In this document: piece by piece, positions 6,846 through 53,240 of the stretch
Layout: every line of letters starts with the position of its first letter
Position numbering within the stretch: the stretch's first letter is position 1
Assembly: GCA_032595675.1 (NCBI GenBank)
Contig: JAVQMD010000001.1
Location: 558,001 to 622,000, forward strand
Direction: 5' to 3'
DNA: 64,000 nt
Origin: Candidatus Electrothrix rattekaaiensis
Lineage (GTDB): Bacteria > Desulfobacterota > Desulfobulbia > Desulfobulbales > Desulfobulbaceae
The notes under the pieces: generated by a model
What the model saw: only the letters and a program-made list of their open reading frames with translations
Database searches by the model: none
Told to the model about the DNA's origin: nothing
Made by a program: the position numbers and the translations under genes

Positions 6846-7020
6846 GAGCATAACACGTATCTCTCAACGAGTATAACGCTTGTCTCAATCCGAGCATAAC
6901 GTTTGTCTCGATCCGAGTAAAGCGTTTGTCTCAATCCGAGTAAAGCGTTTGTCTCGATTCGAGTAAAGCGTTTGTCTCAATCCGAGTAAAGCGTTTGTCT
7001 CGATTCGAGCATAACGCTAT
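6846..7020. repeat. 23-bp tandem repeat array, about 7.6 units
   Basis: Units start at 6846, 6869, 6892, 6915, 6938, 6961 and 6984, with a partial unit at 7007. Each begins GAGTAAAGCG or GAGCATAACG and continues TTTGTCTC; the later units alternate between two variants ending AATCC and GATTC. There are no spacers, so it is not CRISPR. It occupies the upstream region of the Roco gene, and unit one overlaps an upstream in-frame start. Confidence 0.9.
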
Positions 7021-7132
7021 ACTCCTAAACCCTGCGCCGCAGGGACTGGTTGCGGCTCGACCCTACGATTGCCCATCATACCCACAATCCGTAGGGGGAG
7101 CCCCCAGTGTCTCCCCAATCCCGCTCTTACTA
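7021..7132. other. Intergenic segment with decayed palindromic element
   Basis: Noncoding stretch between two tandem repeat arrays. It holds GTAGGGGGAGCCCCC near 7091, which resembles a degenerate arm of the dispersed palindromic element. Nothing else is recognised. Confidence 0.35.
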
Positions 7133-7213
7133 TAAGTCCACCGGTACTACCTAGGTAAGTCCGTCGGTACTACCTAGGTAAGTCCGTCGGTACTACCTAG
7201 GTAAGTCCGTCGG
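7133..7213. repeat. Second 23-bp tandem repeat array, 3.5 units
   Basis: Units start at 7133, 7156, 7179 and 7202 (partial). Each runs TAAGTCCGTCGGTAC then TACCTAGG, with an ACCTAGGT palindrome at the unit junction. It differs in sequence from the array at 6846 but has the same 23-bp period. No gene overlaps it. Confidence 0.9.
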
Positions 7214-32261: not shown

Positions 32262-33029
32262 ATTGCCTCTCTGGGGAACGGTTGTCTTTGTGGCCTGTTT
32301 TTTTGATTACAGCCACTTTACAACAGAATTGTTTTAAGGCAATATGTTTTTAAAAAATATTTGTTGTAAAAATTGAGTCGCAATCCCGGTAGGGCGACCA
32401 ATATTTCGTTCATCCAGCCCTGTTTTGATGAAAAAGCTGTCGTGTTTCAGAATGTTGTTCGCGTTATTGCTCGTTGCCCACCCAACGTTCCGGTACAAAA
32501 AATGAAATTCCCCAATGTGACGGTCGCGATTGTCGAGATTCGTCACCTCTTCTCAGATTTCTCCAAATCGACTGGGTAAACGGATCTCTTTTCTTTTAAT
32601 TCTCTATAATTGCAATATTGTTCCTTGTTTTTTCTTTTTATTCGACTGCGTTCGAGGAAAAATGCCAGTCAAGAATCCTGATACGTACATTCATCTTTTC
32701 CTGCAAGGTCTGCGGTAAAAAAAACACCTCATCTTGTAACATCTTGTTTATCCAATTCTAAAATAATTTTCCGAAAGGTTTTTTTCGTTTTTTTCAGGGA
32801 CTGTTTTAATTTTAATACTTAATTCGGTTGAAGATGGGAACGAATATTTTTTTTACAGGGTTTCTGAAAGGCAATCGGGTGAGATGTGCTCTTTCTGCTT
32901 GATTGTACAAATTTTTTGCCTGGAAAAAACATTGTAATATCCCGGCTCGGGAGGTAACATTATAAGAAAATACACATCGTAATTGGTCAGATACTTTGAC
33001 AAAGGGAATGAAAAAAGGAAGACAAGGTG
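32262..33029. other. Intergenic region, nothing coding recognised
   Basis: 768 AT-rich bases between the divergent ATPase pair and the exporter gene. Short frames on both strands (32373-32579 plus, 32334-32546 minus) overlap each other, lack good ribosome-binding sites and resemble nothing. It should hold the promoters of both flanking units. Confidence 0.4.
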
Positions 33030-35357
33030 ATGAAAAAATTTGAAGCACGTCTGGGCCGATTTGTCATCACATACAGCATTCCGCTGATCCTGCTTTCTCT
33101 ACTCGTTGTGGCGGTAACTGGCTATGGTGCCCGTTTCCTGACCTTCTCCAGTAACAGCCGGATGTTCTTTTCCGAGGATAATCCTGAACTCCAGGCTTTT
33201 AACGCCTTGGAGCAGACCTATACCAAATTCGAGAACGTCTTTTTTACGATTGCTCCAAAATCCAAAAATGTCTTTACCCGTGATGTGCTGACTGCGGTGC
33301 ATGATCTCACGGAAAAATCCTGGAAACTGCCCTATTCCAGCAGAGTAGACTCCATAACCAACTATCAGCATACCAAGGTGGAAGGTGATGATCTGATCGT
33401 TGAAGATCTGGTAGAGAATGCGGAACAGCTTACTGACGAGCAGCTTGGGGAAATTCGCAGGATCGCCCTGAATGATCCGTTGTTGAAAGGACGCCTTATT
33501 TCTCCCACCGGCCATGTAACCGGCGTAAATGTCAACGTTGTGAAGCCGGATGAAAAGGGTAAGGTCTCGGATACGATCTCCCAGGCTGCGTATGCCTTAC
33601 AGGCTGAAATGCAGCAGGAATATCCCCAGCTGGATATCTATGTCACCGGAGTGGTGATGATTGATACGACCTTTGAGCTGGCAGCCGAAGAGGACATCAC
33701 GCTGCTGGTCCCTATCATGTGCGGGCTTCTTCTGTTGATCCTAGCCTTCTGTTTACGTTCTGCACTTGGTATGGGCTTAACCTTTCTGGTGATTGTTTTT
33801 TCCTCCCTGACCGGACTAGGCTTAGCAGGCTGGCTGGGTATTCCCATGAATCCTGCATCAGCCAATGCACCGACTATTATACTTACCTTGGCTGTTGCTG
33901 ATTCCGTCCATTTGCTGACTACAGTGTTTCACCAGATGCGAAATGGTCTTACTCGGCATCAGGCCATTGAGCAATCCATCAGGATCAATTTTCAACCGGT
34001 GCTCATCACCAGCCTGACCACAGCTATTGGATTTCTGACTATGAATTTTTCCGATGCTCCTCCGTTTCGGGATCTCGGAAATGTTGTTGCAATGGGTATT
34101 ATTGCCGCCTTCCTTTATTCGATATTGCTTTTGCCTGCCTTGGCCGCTATTCTGCCGCTCAAGGTTGCTCAGTCATCCCCGTCCTCCTCGCCTTCATCTT
34201 CGCATATTTATGATCGCTTTGCCGATTTTGTCGTGCGCAGACGTACCGCAATTTTTTGGGTTATGATCATCATGATTATCGGAGCCACCACGGGGATTTC
34301 TCGTATCCAGCTGGATGATGATTTTGTCAAGTTTTTCAGCCCACGTTTTGATTTTCGCCGCGCCACGGATTTTACTGCCGAGAATCTGACCGGTATGTAC
34401 ATGATTGACTGGGATCTCAATTCAGGACGGGAAGGAGGAGTCAATGAACCCGAGTATCAGCACACGATTGAGGCCTTTGCCGATTGGTTCCGCCGTCAAA
34501 AGTATGTCTGTCATGTGTACACCTTCACAGATATCATGAAGCAGATTAACCGCAATATGCATGATAACGATCTTGCATATTACCGGCTCCCGGAAGAGCG
34601 AAATTTGGCAGCCCAGTACCTGCTTCTTTATGAGATGAATCTGCCCTTTGGTTTGGATTTGAACGACCGAATTAATATTGATAAATCAGCGAGCAGGATG
34701 ACAGTGTCTCTTGTTGGGGCAAGTACCAGGGAGATGCGTGAGCTAGAAATCGCAGGTCGGGAATGGCTTAAGGAAAACGCCCCGCCTTCCATGTCTACAC
34801 AGGGATCCGGTGTGACCATGATGTTTGCTCACCTTTCGGAGCGCAATATTAAGTCCATGCTTTCTTCCTCTTTACTTGCCCTGGGTCTTATTTCGCTAAT
34901 TATGGTCATTGTTCTGCGGAGTGTTAAATTGGGTGTTCTCAGTTTGATTCCCAATATCGCCCCGGCATTTATGGGCTTTGGGGTGTGGGGATATGCCGTA
35001 GGGCAGGTCGGGCTTGCGGTTTCTGTCCTGATCGCCATGACTATGGGCATTGTTGTGGATGATACGGTTCATTTTCTGGCTAAATATCAGCGGGGGCGGA
35101 CTGAGCAGGGAATGATGCCGGAAGAAGCTGTTCGTTTTGCCTTCCGGACAGTTGCCGCTCCTATGTGGATTTCTACAGTCACTCTGGTCGGCGGGTTTAT
35201 CGTTCTTGCCTGCTCAGGATTTCAGATTAATGCGCATATGGGCAGTATGACCGCGATCACCATCAGTTTGGCTCTGCTGCTTGATTTCTTTTTTCTTCCT
35301 GTTCTGCTGTTACGATTCGACCGTTCTGCCCCATCTGTTCCGGTACGGACTGATTAA
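33030..35357 (+). CDS. RND-superfamily (MMPL-type) exporter
   Basis: The start is the ATG at 33030; a GTG one codon earlier is possible. 775 residues with the RND plan: one N-terminal membrane helix, a large periplasmic loop, five helices, then the same again. Polar residues in the fourth helices (LAVADSVHLL and MGIVVDDTVHFL) carry the proton-relay Asp residues typical of the family. It probably moves a lipid or hydrophobic product from the inner membrane. It lies in a unit with a lipoprotein-sorting-like protein, a beta-barrel and a giant polyketide synthase, so the PKS product is a likely cargo (inference). Confidence 0.9.
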   Translation: MKKFEARLGRFVITYSIPLILLSLLVVAVTGYGARFLTFSSNSRMFFSEDNPELQAFNALEQTYTKFENVFFTIAPKSKNVFTRDVLTAVHDLTEKSWKLPYSSRVDSITNYQHTKVEGDDLIVEDLVENAEQLTDEQLGEIRRIALNDPLLKGRLISPTGHVTGVNVNVVKPDEKGKVSDTISQAAYALQAEMQQEYPQLDIYVTGVVMIDTTFELAAEEDITLLVPIMCGLLLLILAFCLRSALGMGLTFLVIVFSSLTGLGLAGWLGIPMNPASANAPTIILTLAVADSVHLLTTVFHQMRNGLTRHQAIEQSIRINFQPVLITSLTTAIGFLTMNFSDAPPFRDLGNVVAMGIIAAFLYSILLLPALAAILPLKVAQSSPSSSPSSSHIYDRFADFVVRRRTAIFWVMIIMIIGATTGISRIQLDDDFVKFFSPRFDFRRATDFTAENLTGMYMIDWDLNSGREGGVNEPEYQHTIEAFADWFRRQKYVCHVYTFTDIMKQINRNMHDNDLAYYRLPEERNLAAQYLLLYEMNLPFGLDLNDRINIDKSASRMTVSLVGASTREMRELEIAGREWLKENAPPSMSTQGSGVTMMFAHLSERNIKSMLSSSLLALGLISLIMVIVLRSVKLGVLSLIPNIAPAFMGFGVWGYAVGQVGLAVSVLIAMTMGIVVDDTVHFLAKYQRGRTEQGMMPEEAVRFAFRTVAAPMWISTVTLVGGFIVLACSGFQINAHMGSMTAITISLALLLDFFFLPVLLLRFDRSAPSVPVRTD

Positions 35358-35414
35358 TATTCTTTGACCCCGAGCAAAGAAAAAATATATAATTCAGAAG
35401 ACGAGGATAATTTT

Positions 35415-36221
35415 ATGAAATTTTCTACAATCCTGCCCGGAGTGCTCCTACTCGGTATATGTTTCTCGCCACTCTGCGGGCAAATCAGTCTGGCAGAGAC
35501 TCCTGAAAAAAAGGGGCTGGCCATTGTCCTGGAAGCTGAACGCCGCGACCAGGGCTTCGGAGATCAGACCGCCGATATGCTGATGATCCTGCGCAACAGA
35601 AACGGTCAGGAAAGCCGACGGGAGATGACTAATAAAGTTCTGGAAGTAAAAGATGACGGTGACAAGAGTCTGTCTGTTTTTCACACGCCCCGTGATGTTC
35701 GAGGGACAGCCTTGCTGACCTTTTCTCATACAAACGGTGATGATGAACAATGGTTGTATCTGCCTGCTCTGAAACGGGTGAAACGTATCAACTCCCGCAA
35801 TAAATCCGGTTCCTTTGTCGGAAGCGAGTTCTCTTATGAGGATATTTCCAGCCAGGAGGTTGAGGAATATACCTATAAGTATCTTCGAGATGAAAAGGTT
35901 GACGGCCATGCCTGCACAGTGTCTGAATATTATCCTGTTGATGCGGAAAACTCAGGGTATAGCCGACAGGTGGTGTGGCGGGATAAAGACGAGTACCGCA
36001 TCCAGAAGGTGGAATTTTATGATCGCAAGGACAGTCTGCTGAAAACCCTGACGATGAAGGGTTATAAGCAATATGAGGGCAAATACTGGCGAGCCGGGGA
36101 AATGCATATGATGAATCATCAGAGTGGTAAATCCACTGTTTTGCTCTATACCGCATATCGATTTAGGACGGGCCTTACGGATAACGATTTTAATAAGAAC
36201 AGTTTGAAGAGAGCGAGATAA
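35415..36221 (+). CDS. Outer-membrane lipoprotein-sorting-like protein (LolA-type fold)
   Basis: The start is the ATG at 35415 after GAGGATA; the longer frame to 35364 overlaps no better signal. 268 residues with a signal peptide (cleavage near SLA-ET). The mature part carries the pattern of exporter-linked outer-membrane lipoprotein-sorting proteins (RGTALLTF, WLYLPALKRVKRI, GSFVGSEFSYEDI). These are periplasmic LolA-like carriers of hydrophobic cargo, commonly encoded next to MMPL exporters. It probably receives cargo from the RND protein. Confidence 0.85.
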   Translation: MKFSTILPGVLLLGICFSPLCGQISLAETPEKKGLAIVLEAERRDQGFGDQTADMLMILRNRNGQESRREMTNKVLEVKDDGDKSLSVFHTPRDVRGTALLTFSHTNGDDEQWLYLPALKRVKRINSRNKSGSFVGSEFSYEDISSQEVEEYTYKYLRDEKVDGHACTVSEYYPVDAENSGYSRQVVWRDKDEYRIQKVEFYDRKDSLLKTLTMKGYKQYEGKYWRAGEMHMMNHQSGKSTVLLYTAYRFRTGLTDNDFNKNSLKRAR

Positions 36222-36228
36222 TTTTATC

Positions 36229-37539
36229 ATGCGAAGAACGAGGGTTAGGGATCTCATAAGAAATATCTTATCCATTATTCCGGGTGCCGTAGGGGCGAAT
36301 TCCTGTGTTCGCCCTTGCATACCGGGCAGGCACAGGGGCCTGCCCCTGCGATTCTCTCTTTTTCTGCTGTTGATAATGGCACTGCCAGCGGCACTGGTGC
36401 CGGTGACGGCATCAGGCTTTGAGCTTACCGGCAATCTTGTTCTTGAAGGGCGTTATTTCCCGGAAGAACCGCAATACGCCGCCCAACAAGAGCATAACGC
36501 CTCTGTGGTTCTTGAGCCTGAGCTGTATCATGCCTTCAAGGACGGTTCAAGCTTTCTTTTGAAACCCTTTGTTCGTCTGGACAGCAATGAGGACGAGCGG
36601 AGTCATTGGGATATTCGTGAAGCAAATTTTTTATATCCGGCTGAAGGCTGGGAGGTACAGGTCGGCATCAGCAAGGTTTTTTGGGGAGCAACCGAGTTTG
36701 TTCACCTTGTTGATATTATCAATCAGACCGATTCGGTTGAGGGCTTCACCGGAGAGGAAAAACTTGGACAGCCCATGCTTCGCTTCACTGTTCCGCAGGA
36801 TAAGGGCATGATTGAAGCCTTCCTCCTTCCCTGGTTTCGGGAGCGGACCTTTCCCGGAGAGAAAGATCGTCTCCGCAGCCAACCGATCATTGCTGCTGAT
36901 AATCCCTTGTATGAGAGCGTAGCTGAACAATCCCACCTTGATTTTGCCTTACGTTACAGTGATACCATTGGTAACGCTGACTTTGGCCTGTATCATTTTA
37001 TGGGTACATCCCGTGACCCTGAGTTGATATTGGGCGGTGATATGCGCAATCCTATTCTCCTCCCTTACTACGCTCAAATCGGCCAGACCGGCATGGACGT
37101 ACAGATGGTTGCCGGTGATTGGTTGCTGAAAGGAGAAGCCCTGTATCGAACCGGCCAAGGCAGGGATTTTGCTGCCGTTGTGTGCGGTTTTGAGTACACG
37201 TTGTACGGTATTACTGCTGGCGGCGCAGATCTCGGGATTATCGGAGAATATGTCTTTGATGATCGGGCGGACAAATCCTTGACGGTTTTTACGAACGATG
37301 TCATGGGCGGCTTCCGTCTGGCCCTGAACGATGCAGCGGGAACCGAGATTCTGGCAGGTCTTATGAAGGATGTCGAATTTTCCACCTCTATATTTTCACT
37401 AGAGGCGGATCGCCGCCTGGGAGGGCATTTCAAGTTGCACCTAGAGGCCCTGTATATTCTTGATGCAGCGAAGCAGGATGCGGTGTCGCCGCTTGCACAG
37501 GACAGCCATCTTGCCGTTGAATTGCAATATTTCTTTTAA
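36229..37539 (+). CDS. Outer-membrane beta-barrel protein
   Basis: 436 residues. The mature part (from about FELTGNLVLEG) consists of alternating amphipathic strands and ends in Tyr-Phe-Phe, the C-terminal aromatic signature recognised by the BAM machinery. The N-terminus is odd: about 40 residues precede the hydrophobic signal core (FSLFLLLIMALPAALVPV), and residues ~20-42 are encoded by copy D of the dispersed palindromic element. It may be the outer-membrane exit or anchor for the exporter-carrier pair encoded just upstream. The exact family is not certain. Confidence 0.8.
   Translation: MRRTRVRDLIRNILSIIPGAVGANSCVRPCIPGRHRGLPLRFSLFLLLIMALPAALVPVTASGFELTGNLVLEGRYFPEEPQYAAQQEHNASVVLEPELYHAFKDGSSFLLKPFVRLDSNEDERSHWDIREANFLYPAEGWEVQVGISKVFWGATEFVHLVDIINQTDSVEGFTGEEKLGQPMLRFTVPQDKGMIEAFLLPWFRERTFPGEKDRLRSQPIIAADNPLYESVAEQSHLDFALRYSDTIGNADFGLYHFMGTSRDPELILGGDMRNPILLPYYAQIGQTGMDVQMVAGDWLLKGEALYRTGQGRDFAAVVCGFEYTLYGITAGGADLGIIGEYVFDDRADKSLTVFTNDVMGGFRLALNDAAGTEILAGLMKDVEFSTSIFSLEADRRLGGHFKLHLEALYILDAAKQDAVSPLAQDSHLAVELQYFF
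36289..36350. repeat. Dispersed palindromic element, copy D (double hairpin)
   Basis: First hairpin GTAGGGGCGAATTC...TTCGCCCTTGC (36289-36318), second GGGCAGGC...GCCTGCCC (36324-36350). It lies wholly inside the 5' end of the beta-barrel gene and keeps the frame open. Confidence 0.75.
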
Positions 37540-37592
37540 AAAGAACAGCCTCTTCCTGAACGCTTGAAAAAGGCACAGGGCGAGGCTGGCTC

Positions 37593-40500
37593 ATGAAAAA
37601 ATTAATGAATTCAAAATTGATCGCCATTGTTGGTATGGCCTGCCATTATCCGGGAGCACAGGATCTCCGTTCTTTTTGGGAAAACATTTTGACAAGAAGG
37701 CGTCAGTTCCGCCCTCTCCCGGACACCCGGTTACCAGCGTCGGATTATTATGATCCTGATCCTGCCGCACCGGATAAAACATACTGCCGCAAGGCCGGAT
37801 TACTTGATGGGTTTGCTTTTAATCCTGCTCAATATCGCATTCCTCGTTCCACCTTTGAGTCCGCTGATATTGTGCATTGGCTGGCACTCAAGGTTGCCCT
37901 GGCCTCGTTGGACGATGCTGGTTTTAGCAAAGCGTCCGTGCCCAGAGAACGAACAGGGGTCATTCTCGGCAACACCCTGACCGGCGAATATTCTCGGTCC
38001 GAGGGCTTGCGTCTCCGATGGCCTTTTGTCCGTCGAGTAGTAGAGAAAGCCGCCCTTGAAAAGGGTTTGTCTTCGAAACAGACCGCAGGATTTCTCAGAA
38101 CAACGGAGGCATATTATAAATCCGTTTTTACTCCAATCACAGAAGATACCTTAGCCGGTGCGCTGTCCAATACCATTGCCGGGAGGATCTGCAATTATCT
38201 TGATCTGCATGGCGGCGGTTACACTGTTGACGGGGCTTGCTCCTCTTCAATCATTGCGACAGCAACCGCTGCAACACATCTTGTCAACCGTGATCTCGAT
38301 TTAGCCTTGGCCGGTGGGGTGGATATCAGCCTGGACACCTTTGAACTGGTCGGTTTTGCCAAGACCGCTGCGCTGGCTACAGAGGATATGCGGGTCTATG
38401 ATCGCAGGGCAAACGGATTTATTCCCGGAGAAGGGTGCGGCTTTGTGGTGATGAAGCGTTTGGAAGACGCTGTTGCCGACGGTGATTATGTTTATGCTGT
38501 ATTGCACGGTTGGGGTATTTCATCAGACGGGAAAGGCGGCTTGACCGCCCCGAATGCTCAAGGGCAAGCTAGGGCCTTGCAACGAGCCTATGAACGAGCT
38601 GATTGGAATATGAACGATGTTGATTTCATCGAAGGGCACGGAACCGGTACTGCTGTTGGTGATAAAACGGAACTGGAAGGCATAGCCCTGGCTATGAAGA
38701 CGATGAACACGATGAATACGGACAGCGGTAGCGGTGTAGGTGTAGGTGTAGGTGTAGGTGTAGGGACACGGCATGCCGTGTCCCTACAGGACGAGGAGGG
38801 CGAGGAGGGCGAATCAACACCGCTGCGTCGTTGCGGCATCACCTCGTTAAAATCGCTTGTCGGCCATACCAAGGCGGCATCAGGAGTCGGGGCCTTGATC
38901 AAGACCGTGATCGCCTTAAATCAACGGATTCTTCCCCCGCTTGCCAACTGTTTTGAACCCAGTCCTGTTTTTGCAGAGACGACAACGAGCCTTTATCCTC
39001 TTCTGCGCGGAGAAATTCGTCCGCCCCAGGAAATCCTACGAGCTGGTGTCTCCGGTATGGGATTTGGCGGTATTAACTCGCACCTTGCCTTGGCTTCAGG
39101 TGATGCTCCTTCCCCGAAATTGATGCCTGCAATCCGCGAACAGAAATTATTGGCAGATTATCAACGCACCGAGCTCTTTGTTTTCAGTGCGCCCACTGTT
39201 GAGGCGTTATTGAGGAGGGTGCAAGCGGCAGAAGACCTTGCCCGGAATATCTGTGAGGGGGAACGTCTTGATTTGGCTGCCCATCTCGCAACACTTTACG
39301 GAGATAATGCAGCCTGCGGTCCGGTTCGGGCGGCGATCATGGCGGAGTCACCGGAGATGCTCATGGAGCGTCTTGCCAAGATTGTCCATATCCTTGGTAC
39401 ATCTCCCCCGAAAGGGCAGAAAACTTTTTTTGATCCTCGCTCAGGTATCTGTATAGGGAACGATGTGCAGAACTACCGTGTTGGGTTCCTCTTTCCCGGC
39501 CAAGGTTCACAGCAAATCAATATGGGATACCAGCTTGTTCAGCGGCATGATTGGGCTGAGGAGATGGTTAAGGCGATGGAAAAGTCTCTTGGTTGGCCAG
39601 AAGGGAAGCAGCTGAGTGATTTTATCTTTCGACCGGTAGAAAGGGCACTTGATGAATCGCAGGTTAACGACTGGCAGGAGCAGCTCAAGCGGACAGAGAT
39701 TGCCCAGCCTGCTCTCTGTCTGGCATCCATGCTCCGTCTGGAGCAGCTGGCCCGACTTGGGATACAGCCTGAAGCGGTTGGCGGGCACAGCCTTGGCGAA
39801 TTGACATCCTTTTATGCTGCCGGGGCCTATTCCAGAGAAGAGTTGATCGGTTTTGCTGCACTCCGAGGACAGGCAATGACTCCGGGGCAGGGTTATGCCA
39901 GAGGTGATACCGGAGGTACTGCTGGAACCATGGCAAGCCTTGCCTGTTCAGCTGACCAAGCCCAGGCTATTCTTGATACCAGCCAAGGATATGCCGTTGT
40001 GGCGAATAAAAACAGTCCCTCCCAAACGGTTATCTCTGGCGAACCCTTCTGCATTGAACAGGCCTGCCGTCATGCGGAAGAACAGGGCATACGGGCCGTT
40101 CTCTTGCCGGTTGCCAATGCCTTTCATTCACGGTTTGTCTCCTCGGCTGCTCAGGTATTGACTGCATCCCGACTGCTTCCTGTATGCCCGAACCAGTTGA
40201 CAACAAAGCTTTTTTCTGGTCTGCAAGGAGGCAAAGTTGACTTGGATTGTGATTTGAGGAGGCATTTTTCGGAGCAGGTTATCTTGCCGGTTGATTTTAT
40301 TTCCTTGGTTCAGGAAATGAGCAAGCAATGCGATCTGTTCCTGGAGGTAGGACCTAGCAGAGTGCTGACCGGTCTTGCCCGCTCAATCATTGCCAAAGAA
40401 AATGGAGAGGATAGAGGAAATGGAGAAGATGGGCCGATCTGTTTTCCTCTTGAAACAAAACCGGAACAGGACAGAGATCTGAATCTTTTTCTGGCAAACT

Positions 40501-43500
40501 ATTTTGTCCGTGGTGGAACGATTAACTGGCACGCTTTGTACGAGGATCGTCTTGTCCGTTCCTTCACGCCGGTTGATGAACGCGTCTTTTTTGCCAATCC
40601 CTGTGAGCGTTCTTTTCCAGAGTATTTTCCAGAGCAAAAAGAGCAGAGCCTTTCACTGCCCAGCTCTCACTCGTCGGGACAGGTGAATCTTGGTGAGACA
40701 GGTCGTGTTCTTGCTGACGCTGCTGGTCTTTCTAAAGATGAGTTAGCAGTCTATCTGGAGCGACGCAGCCAATTTATCGGGAGTCTTATCAGAGTGGATA
40801 TTGATAATATGGCATCTCTGCTTGAAGATCCCCTTGCCCCTTCTAAATCCACTGTTAAGTCGATTTCCGTTCCCCCTGTTATAGCATTATTTGAAAAGAA
40901 AAAATCAAACATTGATGGCAAAGTTGAGGCGGAAGAACAAAATAGTGCTGACTTGCTCTTTGCTTTGATTGAAGAACGAACCGGTTTTCCACCGGAAAGC
41001 CTTGCTCTGGATCTTCGTCTGCTGGATGATTTGAATCTCGACTCCATCAAAGCATCCGAGTTGATTGCCGAAGCAGCAAACCGAGCAGGTGTTTCAGCTG
41101 CAAACCTGAATGTTTTTGAATATGCTAATGCCACCCTACAAGAGGTGGCTGCGCTCCTGGATGGAGAACCTGAGCAAGATAAGGACATTACTAAGAACAG
41201 TTCTTCGAGGTATCCAAGCTGGGCCCGTGATTTTACCCTGCAATATATCCCAAAACCGCTTTCATCGGAATATGCAGATGAGCAACCTCGGCTGTACCGG
41301 GAAGAAGAGATCCTTATTCTTTTTGAACCTGCTGAGCAGCATATTGCAGAACATCTTGAGGCGGTTTTTCACCGGTTTTCAGCCGAATTTTCAGCCAAGG
41401 TGGAACTCGTTTCTTTTGCAGAGGCCCGACAAGGTATCTCGTCCCTGCTGGCTAGATTCACCCGAGTCATTGCTTTGCTCCCGCAGCAAGAATCAGGTGG
41501 AGATGAATTTTTTGATCAACAAACTCTGGTTGAACACATCACCAGATTGCACACAATATTTTCTCCTTCTTATTATCGGGCCGAGTTGGATAATCAATCA
41601 CTGAGTGTGGTGCAATTCGGTGGTGGCTTTTTTGGTGACGGACCTGTTCCGGCGAATATCAGACGGTGTTCGGCAAAGGCTTTGGCTGCCAGTCTGCATC
41701 TTGAACAACCCGGTCTTAAGGTGAGGGTGCTTGATGTTTCTCCACAAATTTCACAGGATCAGCTTTGTGAATATATAATGGTGGAACTCACCACTGCTGA
41801 GAGATACGCAGCTGTCGGGTATGCTGCTGATCAGATTCGCCGGGTTCCGGCCCCTGTTTTAAGGAGTGTTGCCGCTGATAAACCAAGGCTCATACGATGG
41901 TCACCAAAAGACGTTGTTCTTGCCACTGGTGGAGCAAAGGGCATTACGGCAGAGTGTGTGTTGGCCTTTGGACGTGCCACCGGGGTACAGCTGGCCTTGG
42001 TGGGCAGTTCTTCCCCAACAATGCGCAACGAGCAGCAGGATGAGATCCTTTATACCCTGAAACGAGCCAATGAGGCAGGGCTTTCAGCGCATTATTATCA
42101 ATGTGATGTAACAGATGCCGAAGCCGTGAAGCGACTTGTTCATCAGGTAGAAAATGAACAGGGAACAATCACCGGAGTTATTCATGGCAGTGCTCTGAAT
42201 CGGCCTGGTGGGCTAGATACTGTACCTGTTGAGCAGGCTCTGGAAGAAATCAGCCCTAAAGTTATCGGGGCAATGAACCTTTGCGCTGCTTTGCATGATC
42301 ATCCACCGCAACTGTTTATCGCGTTTTCATCTCTCATTGGCATATCCGGGATGCGGCAAAACGGCTGGTACGGATTTTCCAATGAGGCTCTGCATCTTTT
42401 TCTGCGACAGTATGGAAAAGCCGAGCCTCGTACGGATACGTTGACTATTGCTTTCAGTATCTGGGACGAGGTCGGGATGGGCAGCAGGATGGGCAGCACG
42501 TCTTGGTTGAGTACAATAGGGGTGGATGCTCTGACTGTTCAGCAGGGGACTTCCCGTTTTCTTCAGCTCGCCCTGCATGATCCTGGTGTGGATCAAGTGA
42601 TTGTTACAGCAAGGGCTTATGGGATAGATACCTTTCTTCCTCATGGCCTAGCCCTTCCGCAAGGGTTGCGATTTATTGACAAGGTGATTGATTATCAACC
42701 GGGGGTTGAGATTATCGCCAGAACACGGCTGACCTTGGAAGATGACCCCTATATTAAAGATCATTGTTGGCGCGGTACGTATCTCTTTCCCTTGGTTTTT
42801 GGGCTAGAAGCGATGGCCCAAGCAGTACGCACAGTCACAGGAAAAACTTGTTTTGATGCGGTGTGTATTGAGGATATCGAACTGGCTCGACCGATTGTTT
42901 TGTCAGAGGACATTGGGGCGGAAATCGAGATTCATGCCTTGGTCCTTGAGCAGGATGATTTGGAGGCTGTCCCTCAGGTGCAGGTGCAGATACGCACAGA
43001 ACAGACCGACTTCAGAGAGGATCATTTTTCTGCGATTTTTGTGCTGAGGGATGATTGCTCGCCTGTCTGGCAGGATCCTCCAGAAGGTCTTACTCCCCTT
43101 GATATACTGCCTAAAATCGACCTTTACAAAGAGGAATTGCTCTTTCAAGGTCCTCTGTATCAGAAAATTCAGCAAATTTTTCAGCTCGCTTCCGATATCT
43201 GTCTGTTTACGACAGTACCGTCTTCCGAGACGACCGGTATTTTGGATTTTCCATGGATACTCGGAGACCCTTTCTGTAGAGACTCATTTTTGCAGTCAGG
43301 ACAGGTATCAATACCTAGAGATCTCTGCCTGCCTGTTCGTATCCAACGTATTGAACGTTATCCTGTTGCTCTTGAGGATGATGAATCTGTTTGGGGTAAG
43401 GCTGTTATTGAAGAGCATGCTGAAAAATATATCGACAGCGCAGTGACTGCTTTCAACAAGCAGGGCCGGGTTATTGAGCGGATAACAGGTTATCGTGCCC

Positions 43501-45296
43501 GAATTATTGAACACAAAAAGGAGAACCCGACAGCAGAGGATTTGGTTTATCCTGGTCGACGAGATTGCAAAATTTTGTTGAGCGAACTGAAACAAAGAGC
43601 AACGCTTTTGCCTGCTCATTGTATGCTTCCAGAATTAAGTTCGTATTTTATCTCTTGCCTACAGAGTGTTAGCAAGGAGGTGAGGCGTGGGAAAGAGTTA
43701 CCGTTCATCAAAAATGCCTTAGCACCTCTTCTGGATGCCTCGAATACTCGTATCGAAATTTCTTGGTCACAGGAAGGAAAACCCTTTCTTGCAATTCCCA
43801 CAGATGCCGGGGTGCATTTTTCATTGACTCATAACGAAGGGACACTCGTCTGTACAGCGGGCCAAGGACTCCAGGGGTGTGATCTTGAAACCGTATCTAG
43901 CCACAGCAAAGAAGAATGGCAAAGCCTCTTGGGTAAAGGAAGTGCGGCAATGCTTGCCGAGCTGACCGAGCAGGACAATGATAGTACTAGGCTGGACCAA
44001 TCTGGAACTAGGCTCTGGACAACCTTTGAGGCTGTTTTTAAAGCTCTGGCAATTCAACCTGATGCGAGCAAGCTGCGTATTGCAGAGAAGCAAGGTGATA
44101 CGGTGCTGTTTTTATATGGCGATTGTTGTATCCTTACTTTTCCGGTCAGGCTTACCCTGAGAGGCGAGAGGATGTTGGCTGTGGTGGTTCCGGAAAAATG
44201 CAGTAAGAATAAAATGTTGGAACAGGATCCTCTGTTTGGTAATACCGATGTTCGACCGAATCAGGTCGGCAGCTTTACTCATGAGTTTATAACGACCTTT
44301 TTAGAGGGCAGAGGGCCGCAGGGGAAAGTCTATTTTACTAATATTCCTGTGTGGATGGGTGAGTTAAGAGAATTGGCCTTGTTACCGATAGCTGATCTTC
44401 TCGTACAGGATATGAAAAGCCGTCAATGCGGGATGGTGACGAACAGGTCCTTTTTTTCTGTTGACCAGCAGTTGGATAGTTACGACACTGTGATAGGAGA
44501 GGTTCGTTTGCTGCAGGACACGGATCTTACCAGCTCCTTTCTTTCTCTGGGGTTTAACTGGTTTAAAAAAAAGGAAGACGGCAGTTTGATCCGGGCCGCT
44601 TCTGGTAAGCTCTCGACCACCTGGGTGACAGTGAAAGGTCATGGTAAGGTTCAACTTGCCAATTTGCCAACTTATTTTAAAGATCATTTTATGAGGCTTC
44701 CCCTTGCTCAGGATGATTCCGAGCCAGCGGAGAAGAAGAGACATTCGTTTTTCTCCAAGGCATCACTCCTTTTCACAGCGACTCTTTCTACAAGAAAACA
44801 CAATATATTGTTTCGGCAACAGTTTCTGACATCTCAAGAAGATTCGAATCTGGTTGGTAATATTTATTTTTCTAATTATTACAGTTGGCAAGCGCGGGTG
44901 AGGGATCAATATATTGCAACAAATATTCCTGATATATCCCCCAAAAGTTTTTCTGGTGATTTTGTCTGTGTATACGCAGAGGTTTACCATTTACAGGAGG
45001 CAATGCCCTTTGAGATTATCGAAGTATCCATGTATCTGTATGAACTTTTTTCAGAAGGTTTTACACTCTATTTTGAGTACTATAGTGTCAGTGAGCATGG
45101 TACTCGACGAAGAAAATTAGCTCATGGAGAGCATAGTGTTGTCTGGGTGCCAGAGGGGCAGGAATTGAGCAGTGAAATCCATCCGGCAAAAATGCCAGAG
45201 GAATACGTAGCCCATTTTATGACGATGATAGATAACTCGGAGAAATCTCATTCCTCAGCCCCTGCTCAAGAAGGGGGAGATGAGGATGAGACATGA
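37593..45296 (+). CDS. Iterative type I polyketide synthase, KS-AT-ACP-KR-DH-PPTase-TE-TE
   Basis: 2567 residues in one frame. KS: DGACSSS with C216, EGHGTGT, GHTKAASG. AT: GFLFPGQGSQ and GHSLGE with S733. ACP: LNLDSIKASE with S1151 as the phosphopantetheine site. KR: Rossmann motif ATGGAKGI (~1445). DH-like hotdog: KDHCWRGTYLFP (~1720). PPTase: GCDLE (~2095) and WTTFEAVFKA. Two C-terminal hotdog thioesterase-like units follow; the last has NLVGNIYFSNYYSWQ, like the stand-alone thioesterases of enediyne clusters. KS-AT-ACP-KR-DH-PPTase is the enediyne/polyene PKS order. An insertion of about 40 residues in the KS (368-408) includes palindromic repeat copy E. The gene follows an exporter trio and overlaps recQ. 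Confidence 0.9.
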   Translation: MKKLMNSKLIAIVGMACHYPGAQDLRSFWENILTRRRQFRPLPDTRLPASDYYDPDPAAPDKTYCRKAGLLDGFAFNPAQYRIPRSTFESADIVHWLALKVALASLDDAGFSKASVPRERTGVILGNTLTGEYSRSEGLRLRWPFVRRVVEKAALEKGLSSKQTAGFLRTTEAYYKSVFTPITEDTLAGALSNTIAGRICNYLDLHGGGYTVDGACSSSIIATATAATHLVNRDLDLALAGGVDISLDTFELVGFAKTAALATEDMRVYDRRANGFIPGEGCGFVVMKRLEDAVADGDYVYAVLHGWGISSDGKGGLTAPNAQGQARALQRAYERADWNMNDVDFIEGHGTGTAVGDKTELEGIALAMKTMNTMNTDSGSGVGVGVGVGVGTRHAVSLQDEEGEEGESTPLRRCGITSLKSLVGHTKAASGVGALIKTVIALNQRILPPLANCFEPSPVFAETTTSLYPLLRGEIRPPQEILRAGVSGMGFGGINSHLALASGDAPSPKLMPAIREQKLLADYQRTELFVFSAPTVEALLRRVQAAEDLARNICEGERLDLAAHLATLYGDNAACGPVRAAIMAESPEMLMERLAKIVHILGTSPPKGQKTFFDPRSGICIGNDVQNYRVGFLFPGQGSQQINMGYQLVQRHDWAEEMVKAMEKSLGWPEGKQLSDFIFRPVERALDESQVNDWQEQLKRTEIAQPALCLASMLRLEQLARLGIQPEAVGGHSLGELTSFYAAGAYSREELIGFAALRGQAMTPGQGYARGDTGGTAGTMASLACSADQAQAILDTSQGYAVVANKNSPSQTVISGEPFCIEQACRHAEEQGIRAVLLPVANAFHSRFVSSAAQVLTASRLLPVCPNQLTTKLFSGLQGGKVDLDCDLRRHFSEQVILPVDFISLVQEMSKQCDLFLEVGPSRVLTGLARSIIAKENGEDRGNGEDGPICFPLETKPEQDRDLNLFLANYFVRGGTINWHALYEDRLVRSFTPVDERVFFANPCERSFPEYFPEQKEQSLSLPSSHSSGQVNLGETGRVLADAAGLSKDELAVYLERRSQFIGSLIRVDIDNMASLLEDPLAPSKSTVKSISVPPVIALFEKKKSNIDGKVEAEEQNSADLLFALIEERTGFPPESLALDLRLLDDLNLDSIKASELIAEAANRAGVSAANLNVFEYANATLQEVAALLDGEPEQDKDITKNSSSRYPSWARDFTLQYIPKPLSSEYADEQPRLYREEEILILFEPAEQHIAEHLEAVFHRFSAEFSAKVELVSFAEARQGISSLLARFTRVIALLPQQESGGDEFFDQQTLVEHITRLHTIFSPSYYRAELDNQSLSVVQFGGGFFGDGPVPANIRRCSAKALAASLHLEQPGLKVRVLDVSPQISQDQLCEYIMVELTTAERYAAVGYAADQIRRVPAPVLRSVAADKPRLIRWSPKDVVLATGGAKGITAECVLAFGRATGVQLALVGSSSPTMRNEQQDEILYTLKRANEAGLSAHYYQCDVTDAEAVKRLVHQVENEQGTITGVIHGSALNRPGGLDTVPVEQALEEISPKVIGAMNLCAALHDHPPQLFIAFSSLIGISGMRQNGWYGFSNEALHLFLRQYGKAEPRTDTLTIAFSIWDEVGMGSRMGSTSWLSTIGVDALTVQQGTSRFLQLALHDPGVDQVIVTARAYGIDTFLPHGLALPQGLRFIDKVIDYQPGVEIIARTRLTLEDDPYIKDHCWRGTYLFPLVFGLEAMAQAVRTVTGKTCFDAVCIEDIELARPIVLSEDIGAEIEIHALVLEQDDLEAVPQVQVQIRTEQTDFREDHFSAIFVLRDDCSPVWQDPPEGLTPLDILPKIDLYKEELLFQGPLYQKIQQIFQLASDICLFTTVPSSETTGILDFPWILGDPFCRDSFLQSGQVSIPRDLCLPVRIQRIERYPVALEDDESVWGKAVIEEHAEKYIDSAVTAFNKQGRVIERITGYRARIIEHKKENPTAEDLVYPGRRDCKILLSELKQRATLLPAHCMLPELSSYFISCLQSVSKEVRRGKELPFIKNALAPLLDASNTRIEISWSQEGKPFLAIPTDAGVHFSLTHNEGTLVCTAGQGLQGCDLETVSSHSKEEWQSLLGKGSAAMLAELTEQDNDSTRLDQSGTRLWTTFEAVFKALAIQPDASKLRIAEKQGDTVLFLYGDCCILTFPVRLTLRGERMLAVVVPEKCSKNKMLEQDPLFGNTDVRPNQVGSFTHEFITTFLEGRGPQGKVYFTNIPVWMGELRELALLPIADLLVQDMKSRQCGMVTNRSFFSVDQQLDSYDTVIGEVRLLQDTDLTSSFLSLGFNWFKKKEDGSLIRAASGKLSTTWVTVKGHGKVQLANLPTYFKDHFMRLPLAQDDSEPAEKKRHSFFSKASLLFTATLSTRKHNILFRQQFLTSQEDSNLVGNIYFSNYYSWQARVRDQYIATNIPDISPKSFSGDFVCVYAEVYHLQEAMPFEIIEVSMYLYELFSEGFTLYFEYYSVSEHGTRRRKLAHGEHSVVWVPEGQELSSEIHPAKMPEEYVAHFMTMIDNSEKSHSSAPAQEGGDEDET
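38733..38787. repeat. GGTGTA hexamer run plus dispersed palindromic element, copy E
   Basis: Five tandem hexamers (GGTGTA) run directly into the palindrome GTAGGGACACGGC/GCCGTGTCCCTAC around AT (38760-38787). All lie in frame in the KS domain and encode a Gly-Val run followed by TRHAVSLQ. The adjacent DEEGEEGE coding is also short tandem repeat. Confidence 0.88.
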
Positions 45297-47275
45297 CTCT
45301 CTTGACGAATACTCCCGAAGAAACCCTGCAACAGATTTTCGGCTTTGATGCCTTTCTGCCGGGGCAGGAAGCGGTGATTGCAGCTGTTTTGGCAGGCCGT
45401 TCCGTCTTGGCGATTTTCCCCACTGGTCAGGGAAAGAGCCTTTGCTATCAACTGCCTGCTCTCCATCTTCCCGGCCTGACCTTGGTGGTGTCCCCGCTTA
45501 TGGCTCTGATGAAAGATCAGGTGGATTTCCTTCTCAGCAAAGGAATTGCAGCGGCCCGCCTGGATTCTTCCCTGGATTTTAACGCAGTCAATGCGGTGTA
45601 TGACCGGCTGCACCGTAATGAGCTGAAGCTGCTCTATGTGGCTCCTGAGCGCTTTGCCAATGAACGATTTGTAAGCTTGGTTTCCCGATTGCACCTTTCT
45701 TTGCTGGTGATTGACGAAGCCCATTGCATCTCCGAATGGGGGCATAATTTTCGTCCTGACTATCTCAAACTGGCTGAATTGGCCAAAACCTTTGCGGTGC
45801 CTGCGGTGCTGGGCCTGACCGCGACAGCAACGCCTAAGGTGGCAGCGGATATCCGACAGAGCTTTGCTGTTGCTGACGCTGACTGCATCCAGACCGGATT
45901 CTATCGCCCCAACCTCACCCTGCTCTTTGCACCGGCTGATGAACCGACAGAGAAGCCGGATCAGGAACCGGATCAGGCCTTGGTGCGTCGGCTGACTGAA
46001 CAGCAGAAAAACGGAACATCAGGGCCGACCATCGTTTATGTCACCCTCCAGCAGACCGCAATGCAGGTGGCTGGGCTGCTTGCCAAAGAAGGTTTTCCAG
46101 CCAAGCCCTATCATGCTGGCATGAAGGATGAACAACGGCAGGCGGTTCAGGACTGGTTTATGGCCTCGGACAAGGCAATTGTGGTCGCGACCATTGCCTT
46201 TGGTATGGGTATTGACAAGAGCAATATCCGGGCAGTTTTTCATTATAATCTGCCCAAGAGCCTGGAAAATTATGCCCAGGAAATTGGTAGGGCAGGGCGG
46301 GACGGTTTGCCTTCAACCTGTATTATGCTTGGCAACGGCAATGACCTGCATGTGCTGGAGAACTTTGTCTACGGCGATACGCCAGAGCCCGATCACGTTC
46401 GGGAGTTTGTTGATCATATTCTCGGGCAGGAGGCTGTGTTTTCTTGTTCGATCTATGAGCTTTCCGGCCTGTTTGATATGCGACCGCTGGTCGTCAAAAC
46501 CCTGCTCACCTATCTGGAGCTTGAAGGGCTGCTCGCATCCACCGGGCCGTTTTACAGCAGCTACTCCTTTAAGCCCTTACGGCCCTCTGCGGAGATCCTT
46601 CCTCGCTTTGATGCGGAACGACAGGGCTTTCTCAAAGGACTCCTTTCCTGCGCAGTCAAGCAGAAGATCTGGTTCAGCATTGATCTTGACGAGGCAGCGC
46701 AACGAACGGGCAGTCCGAGGAAACGAGTGATCACGGCCTTAGATTATCTGGAACAGCAGGGGGATCTGGTGCTCAAGGTCAGCGGGGCGCGGCTTGGTTT
46801 TAGAAGGCTTGCTGCTGATCATCTTGATCTTGCTGGCCTCAAGGACGGGCTGGTCAAGCGGTTTGAGCAACGGGAGCAGAGTGACTTGGATCGGCTGGGA
46901 CTGGTGGTTGATCTGGTGAATCATGCAGGGTGCAAGGCTGGGTTTCTGCTGCGATATTTTGGTGAGGAACCGGCAACGGCCTGCGGCCATTGCTCGTTCT
47001 GCCTGCACGGAGAGAATGCGCAGATAAGCGGCAGGTCGAGCGATGTTAGGGTTCTGGAACAAAAGGGTTTGACGGAAGAGCTGCAACGACTCCGTGAAAA
47101 ATATCCCCAGGCCTTGGCAAACCCGCGTCAGATCACCCGCCTGCTTTGCGGTCTTTCATCGCCCGGTTTGACCCGGAATAAACTGAGCAAACATGAGTTG
47201 TTTGGACGATTAGAACAATATCCTTTTGCGGAAGTTATGGCGTGGGTTGCGCGGTTCATGGAGCGTTATAAATGA
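45293..47275 (+). CDS. recQ: RecQ-family ATP-dependent DNA helicase
   Basis: 660 residues. Superfamily 2 motifs: Walker A TGQGKS (motif I), DEAH (motif II), GLTATATP (motif III), QEIGRAGRDG (motif VI). The RecQ-Ct zinc knuckle is CGHCSFC. The C-terminal region is shorter than E. coli RecQ and shows no clear HRDC domain. It unwinds recombination and stalled-fork intermediates. The start overlaps the PKS stop by 4 bases (ATGA), an unexpected coupling of a house-keeping repair gene to a PKS. Confidence 0.94.
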   Translation: MTLLTNTPEETLQQIFGFDAFLPGQEAVIAAVLAGRSVLAIFPTGQGKSLCYQLPALHLPGLTLVVSPLMALMKDQVDFLLSKGIAAARLDSSLDFNAVNAVYDRLHRNELKLLYVAPERFANERFVSLVSRLHLSLLVIDEAHCISEWGHNFRPDYLKLAELAKTFAVPAVLGLTATATPKVAADIRQSFAVADADCIQTGFYRPNLTLLFAPADEPTEKPDQEPDQALVRRLTEQQKNGTSGPTIVYVTLQQTAMQVAGLLAKEGFPAKPYHAGMKDEQRQAVQDWFMASDKAIVVATIAFGMGIDKSNIRAVFHYNLPKSLENYAQEIGRAGRDGLPSTCIMLGNGNDLHVLENFVYGDTPEPDHVREFVDHILGQEAVFSCSIYELSGLFDMRPLVVKTLLTYLELEGLLASTGPFYSSYSFKPLRPSAEILPRFDAERQGFLKGLLSCAVKQKIWFSIDLDEAAQRTGSPRKRVITALDYLEQQGDLVLKVSGARLGFRRLAADHLDLAGLKDGLVKRFEQREQSDLDRLGLVVDLVNHAGCKAGFLLRYFGEEPATACGHCSFCLHGENAQISGRSSDVRVLEQKGLTEELQRLREKYPQALANPRQITRLLCGLSSPGLTRNKLSKHELFGRLEQYPFAEVMAWVARFMERYK

Positions 47276-48515: not shown

Positions 48516-49610
48516 CTATTTAAGGGGAGGATAATCCGTATATCCTTTTTCTCCCGGTGTATAAAAGGTGTTTTCATCCCACTTGGCAAGCTCCGCATTC
48601 TTTTCAAACCGTTCTACAAGGTCAGGATTGGAGATGAAAGGTTTTCCATAGGCTACCAGGTCCGCCAGGTTATCCTTGATGACTTGGTTCCCTCGTTCCC
48701 TGTTGAAGTTAGAGTTGATCATGAGCGTCCCTTTGTACATCGGCCTGTAATGTTGCGCAATGTTGGGCTCGGCCCCCGGAACTTCCGTGACATCGTTGAA
48801 TGGCTCGGAAAGATGAAGGTAAGCGAGATCGTAGTTGTTCAGATTTTCTACGATATAATCAAAGGTCGGGATGGTTTCTTCGTTCAGGGTCATGCCGAAG
48901 ATGTTGTGGAGCGATGGGTTAAGCCTTACCCCGATCCGTTTTATCGGCATATGCTGTTTGATTTCATCAAGTACATCAAAGAGGATCTTGGCCCGGTTTT
49001 CAATGGAGCCACCGTATTCGTCCGTCCGGATGTTGGAGGTCGGGCTGAAGAATTGATGGAGAAGATACCCGTTGGAGGCGTGGATCTCCACCCCATCAAA
49101 GCCTGCTTTCAGAGCATTTTTGGCGGCATTGCCAAAGTCTTTTATAGTTTCCTTGATCTCCTCGATGCTCATCTCTTTGGGTGTGACGGTCTTTTTGAAA
49201 CCCTCGGGTGTGTAGGATTCGGCGTTTGGGTTTAAAGCGGAGGCTGACAGGGGAAGCTCTCCGTTATGGAAATCCGGGTGGGACATGCGGCCCACATGCC
49301 AGAGTTGGATAAAAATTTTGCCGCCTTTTTCATGGACTGAGGAGGTCACCTTTTTCCACCCCTCTACCTGTTCGGTGGAGTAAATTCCAGGCGTGTTGAT
49401 ATAACCCACAGCGCGTTTGGATATCTGGGAGCCTTCGGTGATCAAAAGCCCGGCTGATGCTCTCTGGGCATAGTGCTCAGCTATGAGATCCGTAGCAACG
49501 TTGCCTGGGTTGTCAGCTCGACTTCTCGTCATGGGTGCCATGACCACCCGGTTTGCCAGGGGTAGTCCTTTCATTTCGTATTGTGTAAGAAGTGCTTGTG
49601 TATTTTCCAT
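48516..49610 (-). CDS. Old-yellow-enzyme family alkene reductase
   Basis: 364 residues, an FMN TIM barrel. The active-site His-Asn pair is in EIHASNGYLLHQF. The FMN-binding N-terminal RVVMAPMTRSRA and C-terminal YGKPFISNPDLVERF are typical of NemA/OYE alkene reductases that reduce activated C=C or nitro groups with NAD(P)H. It stands alone. Its physiological substrate is unknown, possibly detoxification of electrophiles. Confidence 0.93.
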   Translation of the reverse strand: MENTQALLTQYEMKGLPLANRVVMAPMTRSRADNPGNVATDLIAEHYAQRASAGLLITEGSQISKRAVGYINTPGIYSTEQVEGWKKVTSSVHEKGGKIFIQLWHVGRMSHPDFHNGELPLSASALNPNAESYTPEGFKKTVTPKEMSIEEIKETIKDFGNAAKNALKAGFDGVEIHASNGYLLHQFFSPTSNIRTDEYGGSIENRAKILFDVLDEIKQHMPIKRIGVRLNPSLHNIFGMTLNEETIPTFDYIVENLNNYDLAYLHLSEPFNDVTEVPGAEPNIAQHYRPMYKGTLMINSNFNRERGNQVIKDNLADLVAYGKPFISNPDLVERFEKNAELAKWDENTFYTPGEKGYTDYPPLK

Positions 49611-52867: not shown

Positions 52868-53240
52868 ACAACTCATCTATTGATAACCAACAACTCCTTG
52901 TTGGTCGCGAACAACCTTCTGTTGATAACAAACAACCTTCTGTTGGTAGCAAACAACCTTTTGTTGGTAGCAAACAACCTTTTGTTGGTAGCAAACAACC
53001 TTTTGTTGGTAGCAAACAACCTTTTGTTGGTAGCAAACAACCTTTTGTTGGTAGCAAACAACCTTTTGTTGGTAACCAATAACCTTCTGTTGATAGCAAA
53101 CAACCTTTTGTTAGTAACCAAGAACCTTCTGTTGATAGCAAACAACCTTCTGTTGATAGCAAATAACCTTTTGTCAGCTATCAACAACCTTCTCTTGATA
53201 ACCAACAACCTTTTGTTTGCTCTTGCGAACCTTCTTGTAC
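52868..53240. repeat. 21-bp tandem repeat array, about 17 units
   Basis: Perfectly phased 21-bp units from 52868 to ~53240; units 3-9 (52931-53077) are nearly identical. The unit is AACAACCTTTTGTTG then GTAGCA, and each contains a CAACA...TGTTG dyad. The period is exactly seven codons, so several frames stay open on both strands, giving repetitive frames that I do not call as genes. The array lies between the hypothetical gene at 52227 and the 3' end of the sensor kinase. Confidence 0.92.

Follow-up and report, generated by a model that had tools for sequence, protein, structure and literature searches.

Conjugated polyenes are made by CalE8 and its homologues and are released by CalE7 (PMC3107222). 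In these enediyne polyketide synthases (PKSEs), which include SgcE of C-1027, one chain carries ketosynthase (KS), acyltransferase (AT), acyl carrier protein (ACP), ketoreductase (KR), dehydratase (DH) and phosphopantetheinyl transferase (PPTase) domains in that order, and the thioesterase is a separate E10/CalE7 protein. Enediyne-type KSs have also been reported from Deltaproteobacteria, marine sediments and anaerobes (PMC10308959). Here we describe a 64,000-nucleotide stretch of the genome of the cable bacterium Candidatus Electrothrix rattekaaiensis (contig JAVQMD010000001.1, positions 558,001 to 622,000; hereafter the window), which encodes a type I polyketide synthase (PKS) with the same order of domains, as checked on the C-1027 protein, and with two hotdog units of the E10/CalE7 family, HD1 and HD2, fused to its C-terminus. 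We read this PKS as a one-protein, self-activating, self-releasing iterative polyene synthase of the PKSE lineage, and put the probability of this reading at roughly three in four.

The open reading frame (ORF) begins with ATG and runs through 2567 codons uninterrupted by stops. Pfam matches follow one another as KS (residues 10-293 and 301-370), AT (632-925), ACP (1122-1189), KR (1442-1625) and DH (1706-1976), and the order KS-AT-ACP-KR-DH-PPTase-HD1-HD2 in one intact ORF is confirmed (Table 1). All six domains from KS to PPTase show the motifs expected of them; NAFHS in the AT is of the malonyl type. Because homologues occur across the whole genus and in several phyla, the ORF is beyond chance. 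It has one ACP, compared with one to five in its relatives, and thus does not show the tandem ACP array of polyunsaturated fatty acid (PUFA) synthases. Between the two His motifs of the KS lies an insert (window 38694-38812) that varies within the genus and is built of short in-frame tandem repeats of 9-, 6- and 9-base units, encoding, for instance, GVGVGVGVGVG.

Table 1. Features of the PKS locus, in window coordinates.
Feature	Coordinates	Strand	Basis
MMPL/RND transporter, 776 aa, upstream cassette	33027..35357	+	family scans, conserved order
LolA-like periplasmic carrier, 285 aa	35364..36221	+	PF17131, E=2.9e-66
orf436, putative outer-membrane protein	36229..37539	+	N-terminal hydrophobic stretch, C-terminal YFF, by eye
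Putatively iterative type I PKS, 2567 aa, KS-AT-ACP-KR-DH-PPTase-HD1-HD2	37593..45296	+	ORF, Pfam, profiles
KS; VDGACSSS (212-219), EGHGTGT (347-353), GHTKAASG (424-431)	37620..39107	+	Pfam, motifs
AT; GHSLGE (731), NAFHS (842)	39450..40427	+	Pfam, motifs
ACP, single; LNLDSIKA, predicted phosphopantetheine Ser1151	40926..41177	+	Pfam, motif
KR; TGGAKGIT, FSS, WYGFSNE	41880..42572	+	Pfam, motifs
DH; DHCWRGTYLFP	42660..43562	+	Pfam, motif
PPTase, Sfp-type; GKP, FSLTH, GCDLE, WTTFEAVFKA	43707..44234	+	family profile, motifs
HD1, enediyne-thioesterase type, residues 2225-2369; R37 equivalent R2259	44265..44699	+	profile, model
HD2, enediyne-thioesterase type, residues 2404-2545; N2419, Y2429, R2437	44802..45227	+	profile, model
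RecQ-family helicase	45293..47275	+	family scans
Old yellow enzyme (OYE)/N-ethylmaleimide-reductase family gene, downstream of RecQ	48516-49610	-	family scans

Two KS trees, one with 43 rows and the other with 41, place the window sequence inside a 29-row clade (support 97/97 and 99/98). This clade joins the PKSE rows from actinobacteria, among them the one from the C-1027 plasmid, at 100/100 (together with a Sinorhizobium meliloti row) and 100/99. It is sister to those rows, five in number, and lies outside them; we take C-1027's alone to be characterised. The clade of the window comprises 22 rows with HD-HD and seven without, all 29 under the tree label PPT-HDHD. In both trees the window KS stands apart from the PUFA-type rows (two PfaA-type, one PfaC-type) and the modular rows; similarity, architecture and neighbours were the basis for labelling rows as PUFA or modular, and also for labelling four of the five PKSE rows, and both trees carry a warning on long branches toward the outgroup joins. 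The 43 rows were obtained from 44 extracted domains by dropping L015, L038, L039, L055, L056 and L063 (near copies or a fragment) and adding five hand-cut modular KSs; removal of two long branches gave the tree of 41. A PUFA-type or modular PKS was rejected on the basis of these two trees, neither of which contains HglE or aryl-polyene KSs.

The hotdog units are both closest in sequence to the CalE7/DynE7 family. When a 378-aa query spanning HD1 and HD2 was used, known thioesterases matched in the HD2 stretch alone (5vpj, 1.6e-11; CalE7, 2.7e-9; DynE7, 1e-8), while separate profiles of HD1 and HD2 both return the same six enediyne/polyene-thioesterase chains at the top, with best values of 1.6e-10 and 2.2e-24, respectively. 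These profiles, like the HD residue counts and HD trees, use 26 rows, namely the window and 25 of the 26 HD-bearing loci (L039, a near copy of L038, was excluded). HD2 of the window retains the equivalents of N19, Y29 and R37, presumably catalytic in CalE7, and HD1 retains only the Arg, with Gly and Ile in place of the other two. Across the family the HD1 Arg is invariant (26/26), the HD2 Tyr nearly so (25/26), and the HD2 Arg is present in 17/26 rows; an Asn aligned with CalE7 N23 occurs in every HD2 and in no HD1 (26/26 and 0/26). HD1 and HD2 may therefore share one asymmetric site, judging from the alignments. An AlphaFold2 model of the pair (predicted local distance difference test score, pLDDT, 87.3; predicted template modelling score 0.88) shows tandem hotdogs in a FatA-like arrangement, and the predicted fold is nearest to acyl-ACP thioesterases. 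The window units are ~8-14% identical to the plant and bacterial acyl-ACP thioesterases FatA/FatB; unlike these, they belong to a PKS chain and come, by sequence, from the enediyne-thioesterase family.

In the window sequence by itself the PPTase gives a weak signal, with ACPS matched at E=0.015, under the Pfam cut-off; no PPTase appears among the phmmer matches, and the window row has no ACPS match in a row-by-row scan that finds one in 19 of 29 family rows. The single-sequence match is not confident because the domain is too diverged. A family profile built from 29 of the 38 listed reference rows has Sfp as its top match (E=2.4e-5); of the 13 PDB matches that it makes with E<=1, 11 carry the name PPTase or holo-ACP synthase. 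A preliminary description of the locus, made from the bare sequence, had claimed the KS-to-PPTase order, kinship with PKSEs, two hotdog-like C-terminal units and a likeness to enediyne thioesterases. All four stand, and neither of the checks that it had proposed, a KS tree (here without HglE or aryl-polyene KSs) and a structure prediction, refuted it.

A scan of named genomes yielded 38 loci, the closest in Electrothrix aarhusensis, E. marina and E. gigas and in one Desulfobulbaceae metagenome-assembled genome (MAG). A 448-aa C-terminal query (the PPTase end and both hotdogs) matched 11 of 96 genomes, including all eight from Electrothrix, at one place in each genome of the genus. Five of these eight have the PKS as one full-length ORF; it is broken in G003 and G006, and is ended by a contig edge in G005. 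In the one-contig genome G006 (L015, 5307-12867) it takes the form of two overlapping ORFs split near the second KS His motif, either by sequencing error or by a real frameshift. PPTase-HD-HD lies on one chain at 26 of the 38 loci, as a single KS-to-HD ORF in 15, split over two or three genes in five (three Rhodococcus, two cyanobacteria), cut at contig ends in four and broken in two; the 12 loci without HDs on the chain are 11 cyanobacterial ones and a 3.1-kb contig. By NCBI labels the 26 fall into Thermodesulfobacteriota, Pseudomonadota, Bacteroidota, Cyanobacteriota, Candidatus Melainabacteria, Omnitrophota and Actinomycetota, and single assignments may be wrong because many of the loci are MAGs. 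With seven phyla represented, and enediyne-type KSs of Deltaproteobacteria and anaerobes already in print (PMC10308959), the rarity ascribed to such systems in the preliminary description was overstated.

Some relatives may have been seen before under other names. MCA1238 of Methylococcus capsulatus Bath was noted in 2004 as an 'atypical' PKS containing 'domains with unknown functions', beside a GGDEF-EAL gene (PMC517821). A Methylococcus Texas-strain locus (L047) has the same KS...PPTase-HD-HD chain, also adjoins a GGDEF-EAL gene and is probably the same gene as MCA1238; unlike the window it has two ACPs, and its RND neighbour is of the AcrB type. The secondary lipid/PUFA synthases surveyed by Shulse and Allen (2011) are likewise multidomain, with several in Deltaproteobacteria, and their Type Q is from Rhodococcus erythropolis PR4 (PMC3098273). 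R. erythropolis NBRC 15567 (L040) has the window-type architecture, a match of species that does not imply identity of the genes.

PKSEs have recognisable partner genes. Beside the PKS of the C-1027 plasmid are two DUF1702 genes, SgcE4 (CRTAC1-type) and SgcE5 (Rnf-like), and E4/E5-type genes adjoin two further Streptomyces PKSEs. Homologues of DUF1702, SgcE4 and SgcE5 were found in none of the eight Electrothrix genomes, which are 69-97% complete, while the positive controls, the C-1027 and S. meliloti plasmids, were matched for all three. DUF1702 was also not found in a Gloeothece plasmid or in the Rhodococcus and Methylococcus genomes, and among the compared loci SgcE4 and SgcE5 matches occur in PKSE loci and in no HD-HD locus. 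The separation is not clean, since seven loci of the window clade, all cyanobacterial, have DUF1702, and one of these, L044, also has HD-HD. No enediyne tailoring gene was recognised among 16 neighbouring ORFs scanned, and in place of a discrete E10-type thioesterase the locus has two such units fused to the PKS. On the strength of the partner-gene searches, enediyne production in Electrothrix was rejected, and the suggestion of an actual enediyne is not supported; a plain polyene is the probable product. As a separate observation, the S. meliloti T073 plasmid psymA (L070, 123-10137) carries DUF1702, SgcE4-like, SgcE5-like, PKSE-like and separate hotdog thioesterase genes in a row. In this alphaproteobacterium they amount, by sequence, to a compact core cassette of the enediyne type.

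Immediately upstream of the PKS, the MMPL/RND, LolA-like and orf436 genes keep the same strand and order in six of seven assessable Electrothrix genomes, and orf436 ends 53 bases before the PKS in the window. Genes for RND and LolA-like proteins are found with aryl-polyene synthesis as well and have been proposed to serve its transport (PMC8253772), which makes delivery to the envelope an attractive reading; a functional link between cassette and PKS may be supposed. Aryl-polyene clusters resemble the window in combining a predicted polyene with these transport genes, but they encode separate small enzymes (dissociated type II KS, KR, DH and ACP genes) rather than one type I chain, and no glycosyl- or acyltransferase gene was recognised among the 16 scanned neighbours. 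The outer-membrane location of orf436 is proposed because of its sequence ends and its neighbours; it has no Pfam match and no significant PDB match, and its structure prediction is poor (pLDDT 28.5). Its N-terminus as called (residues ~5-43; window 36229-36360) matches short scattered places in 8/8 Electrothrix genomes. A dispersed DNA repeat thus covers the 5' end, and the true start is probably downstream; no inverted repeats were found in window 35900-37700. In related genera MMPL-LolA-orf436 forms a conserved three-gene cassette (L085-L092; window 33027-37539).

In the scheme that we propose, the PPTase domain would arm the ACP of its own chain, KS and AT would add malonyl units repeatedly, and KR and DH would convert each keto group to a double bond. 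Domain scans of the chain show no enoyl reductase (ER) domain (no search was made for a trans-acting ER encoded elsewhere), so that the double bonds would stay and conjugate. HD1-HD2 would then act as a FatA-like double-hotdog thioesterase, cutting the chain off in cis and doing the job of the separate E10/CalE7 protein of enediyne producers. Sequence or model shows the domains, motifs, KS lineage, hotdog kinship to CalE7/DynE7 and double-hotdog fold; we infer iterative use, conjugation and hydrolysis as the release step. By analogy the product should be a linear conjugated polyene or a derivative thereof; a membrane polyene, as first suggested, is plausible.

Other fates of the chain can be envisaged. 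Conversion of the polyene to an enediyne warhead by enzymes encoded elsewhere would suit the KS kinship and the PKSE-like domain order, and, outside the actinobacteria, RefSeq relatives of such KSs have been called enediyne-like by antiSMASH (PMC10308959). Such a pathway is nonetheless extremely improbable in view of the partner-gene searches and of the neighbours scanned. A trans-acting enoyl reductase might instead remove some or all of the double bonds, making the enzyme a lipid synthase with a membrane fatty acid as product. The PfaA model TIGR02813 is indeed the second NCBIfam match of the PKS (E=2.6e-155; its 519 bits fall short of the 1010-bit cut-off), relatives have up to five ACPs, a transport cassette adjoins the gene, and an OYE-family gene, the only ene-reductase-like neighbour recognised, lies on the opposite strand ~3.2 kb downstream. 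The window KS, however, lies outside the PUFA-type rows, the chain shows no ER domain, and the OYE gene is convergent with the PKS and of a type that, to our knowledge, is not among the known PKS-ERs; we regard a lipid synthase as unlikely. It is also quite unlikely that HD1-HD2 is not a hydrolase and merely holds, shapes, isomerises or decarboxylates a chain that another enzyme releases, as the closest sequences to both units are releasing thioesterases and the closest fold to the modelled pair is that of acyl-ACP thioesterases.

As to destination, we tentatively propose that the RND-LolA-outer-membrane cassette carries the product, a linear polyene or polyene acid, to the envelope, where it might act as an antioxidant. 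Several observations weigh against the polyene synthase and its envelope role. The HD2 equivalent of CalE7 R37 is missing in 9/26 family rows, so the catalytic layout may differ from that of CalE7. A long polyene is expected to give a Raman band near 1500-1530 cm-1. For native cable bacteria, which may be of other species, Table 2 of a multi-wavelength Raman study lists no band in that region, and the 410-nm band of their ultraviolet-visible spectrum is read as cytochrome (PMC10959288); a strong constitutive pigment is therefore unlikely in the filaments studied there, and low amount, short chain or conditional expression may reconcile a polyene with these data. Finally, the E. gigas genome (93% complete) has an intact PKS ORF without the cassette, and the cassette is complete without an adjacent PKS in eight of ten regions from other genera, two of these eight being in genomes whose PKS sits on other contigs. 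This comparison covered regions of ten non-Electrothrix genomes with a strong orf436 match, others (for example G020, G082 and G083) being left out. Our first idea, a cassette dedicated to the PKS, is weakened by these cases. Whether the two are unrelated, and mere neighbours in Electrothrix, is evenly poised: an MMPL/LolA-like protein linked to growth on long-chain alkanes in Thalassolituus shows such modules serving other cargo (PMC6304351), while the conserved order, the short gap and the aryl-polyene precedent argue for a connection. Doubtful as a whole is the combined picture of cross-phylum single-protein polyene synthases, formed from a PKSE and a tandem-duplicated E10 with an asymmetric composite release site (HD2 Asn/Tyr, HD1 Arg), which in cable bacteria would supply an envelope polyene through an RND-LolA-barrel machine and protect the oxygen-exposed cells of an anaerobic, current-carrying filament.

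Downstream, the RecQ ORF starts within the end of the PKS ORF, sharing its last 4 bases. RecQ directly follows the PKS in four genomes and comes one ORF later in a fifth, and was not seen in the examined flank of two others. A part in the pathway, as self-protection from a DNA-damaging product, was considered; with two flanks lacking RecQ, the arrangement looks like conserved gene order, and RecQ is probably only a neighbour. No additional PKS or Pfa gene was recognised among the scanned neighbours. Elsewhere the window contains an array of ~15 copies of a 21-base unit (52898-53217) and two arrays of 23-base units (~7.5 and ~3.5 copies; 6846-7213).

Members of the family outside Electrothrix show further variation. 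A C-terminal FAD oxidoreductase is present in L030 and L034 (domain scan) and in L031 and L036 (by eye), and L026/L045 have a methyltransferase-like tail (by eye; no Pfam match). In L034, L036 and L049 a histidine kinase-type gene with an N-terminal seven-transmembrane region directly follows the PKS. The cyanobacterial members L041, L044, L052, L053, L055, L058, L059 and L061-L065 adjoin one to three genes of a single family, annotated as tryptophan halogenase in Gloeothece and without a Pfam match in a Scytonema member; several of these loci also have DUF1702, and three a carotenoid oxygenase family gene. A halogenated, cleaved polyene pathway is possible at these loci.

Among the open-access papers searched we found none pairing 'cable bacteria' or 'Electrothrix' with 'polyketide synthase', and nothing, in titles and abstract starts, on a fused enediyne-type thioesterase. 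The window PKS should work like a PKSE and its E10 in one chain, yet it departs from PKSE membership in two features. Some of the 'enediyne' KS signals of marine sediments and anaerobes (PMC10308959) may plausibly come from enzymes of this kind, which would correct automatic 'enediyne' labels: the sister clade, at least in Electrothrix, should be taken as polyene synthases that carry their own release domain, not as enediyne producers. The product of the window PKS would be a further, uncharacterised molecule common to the cable-bacterium genus Electrothrix, and the enzyme, as a single-gene polyene maker, can be expressed and tested.
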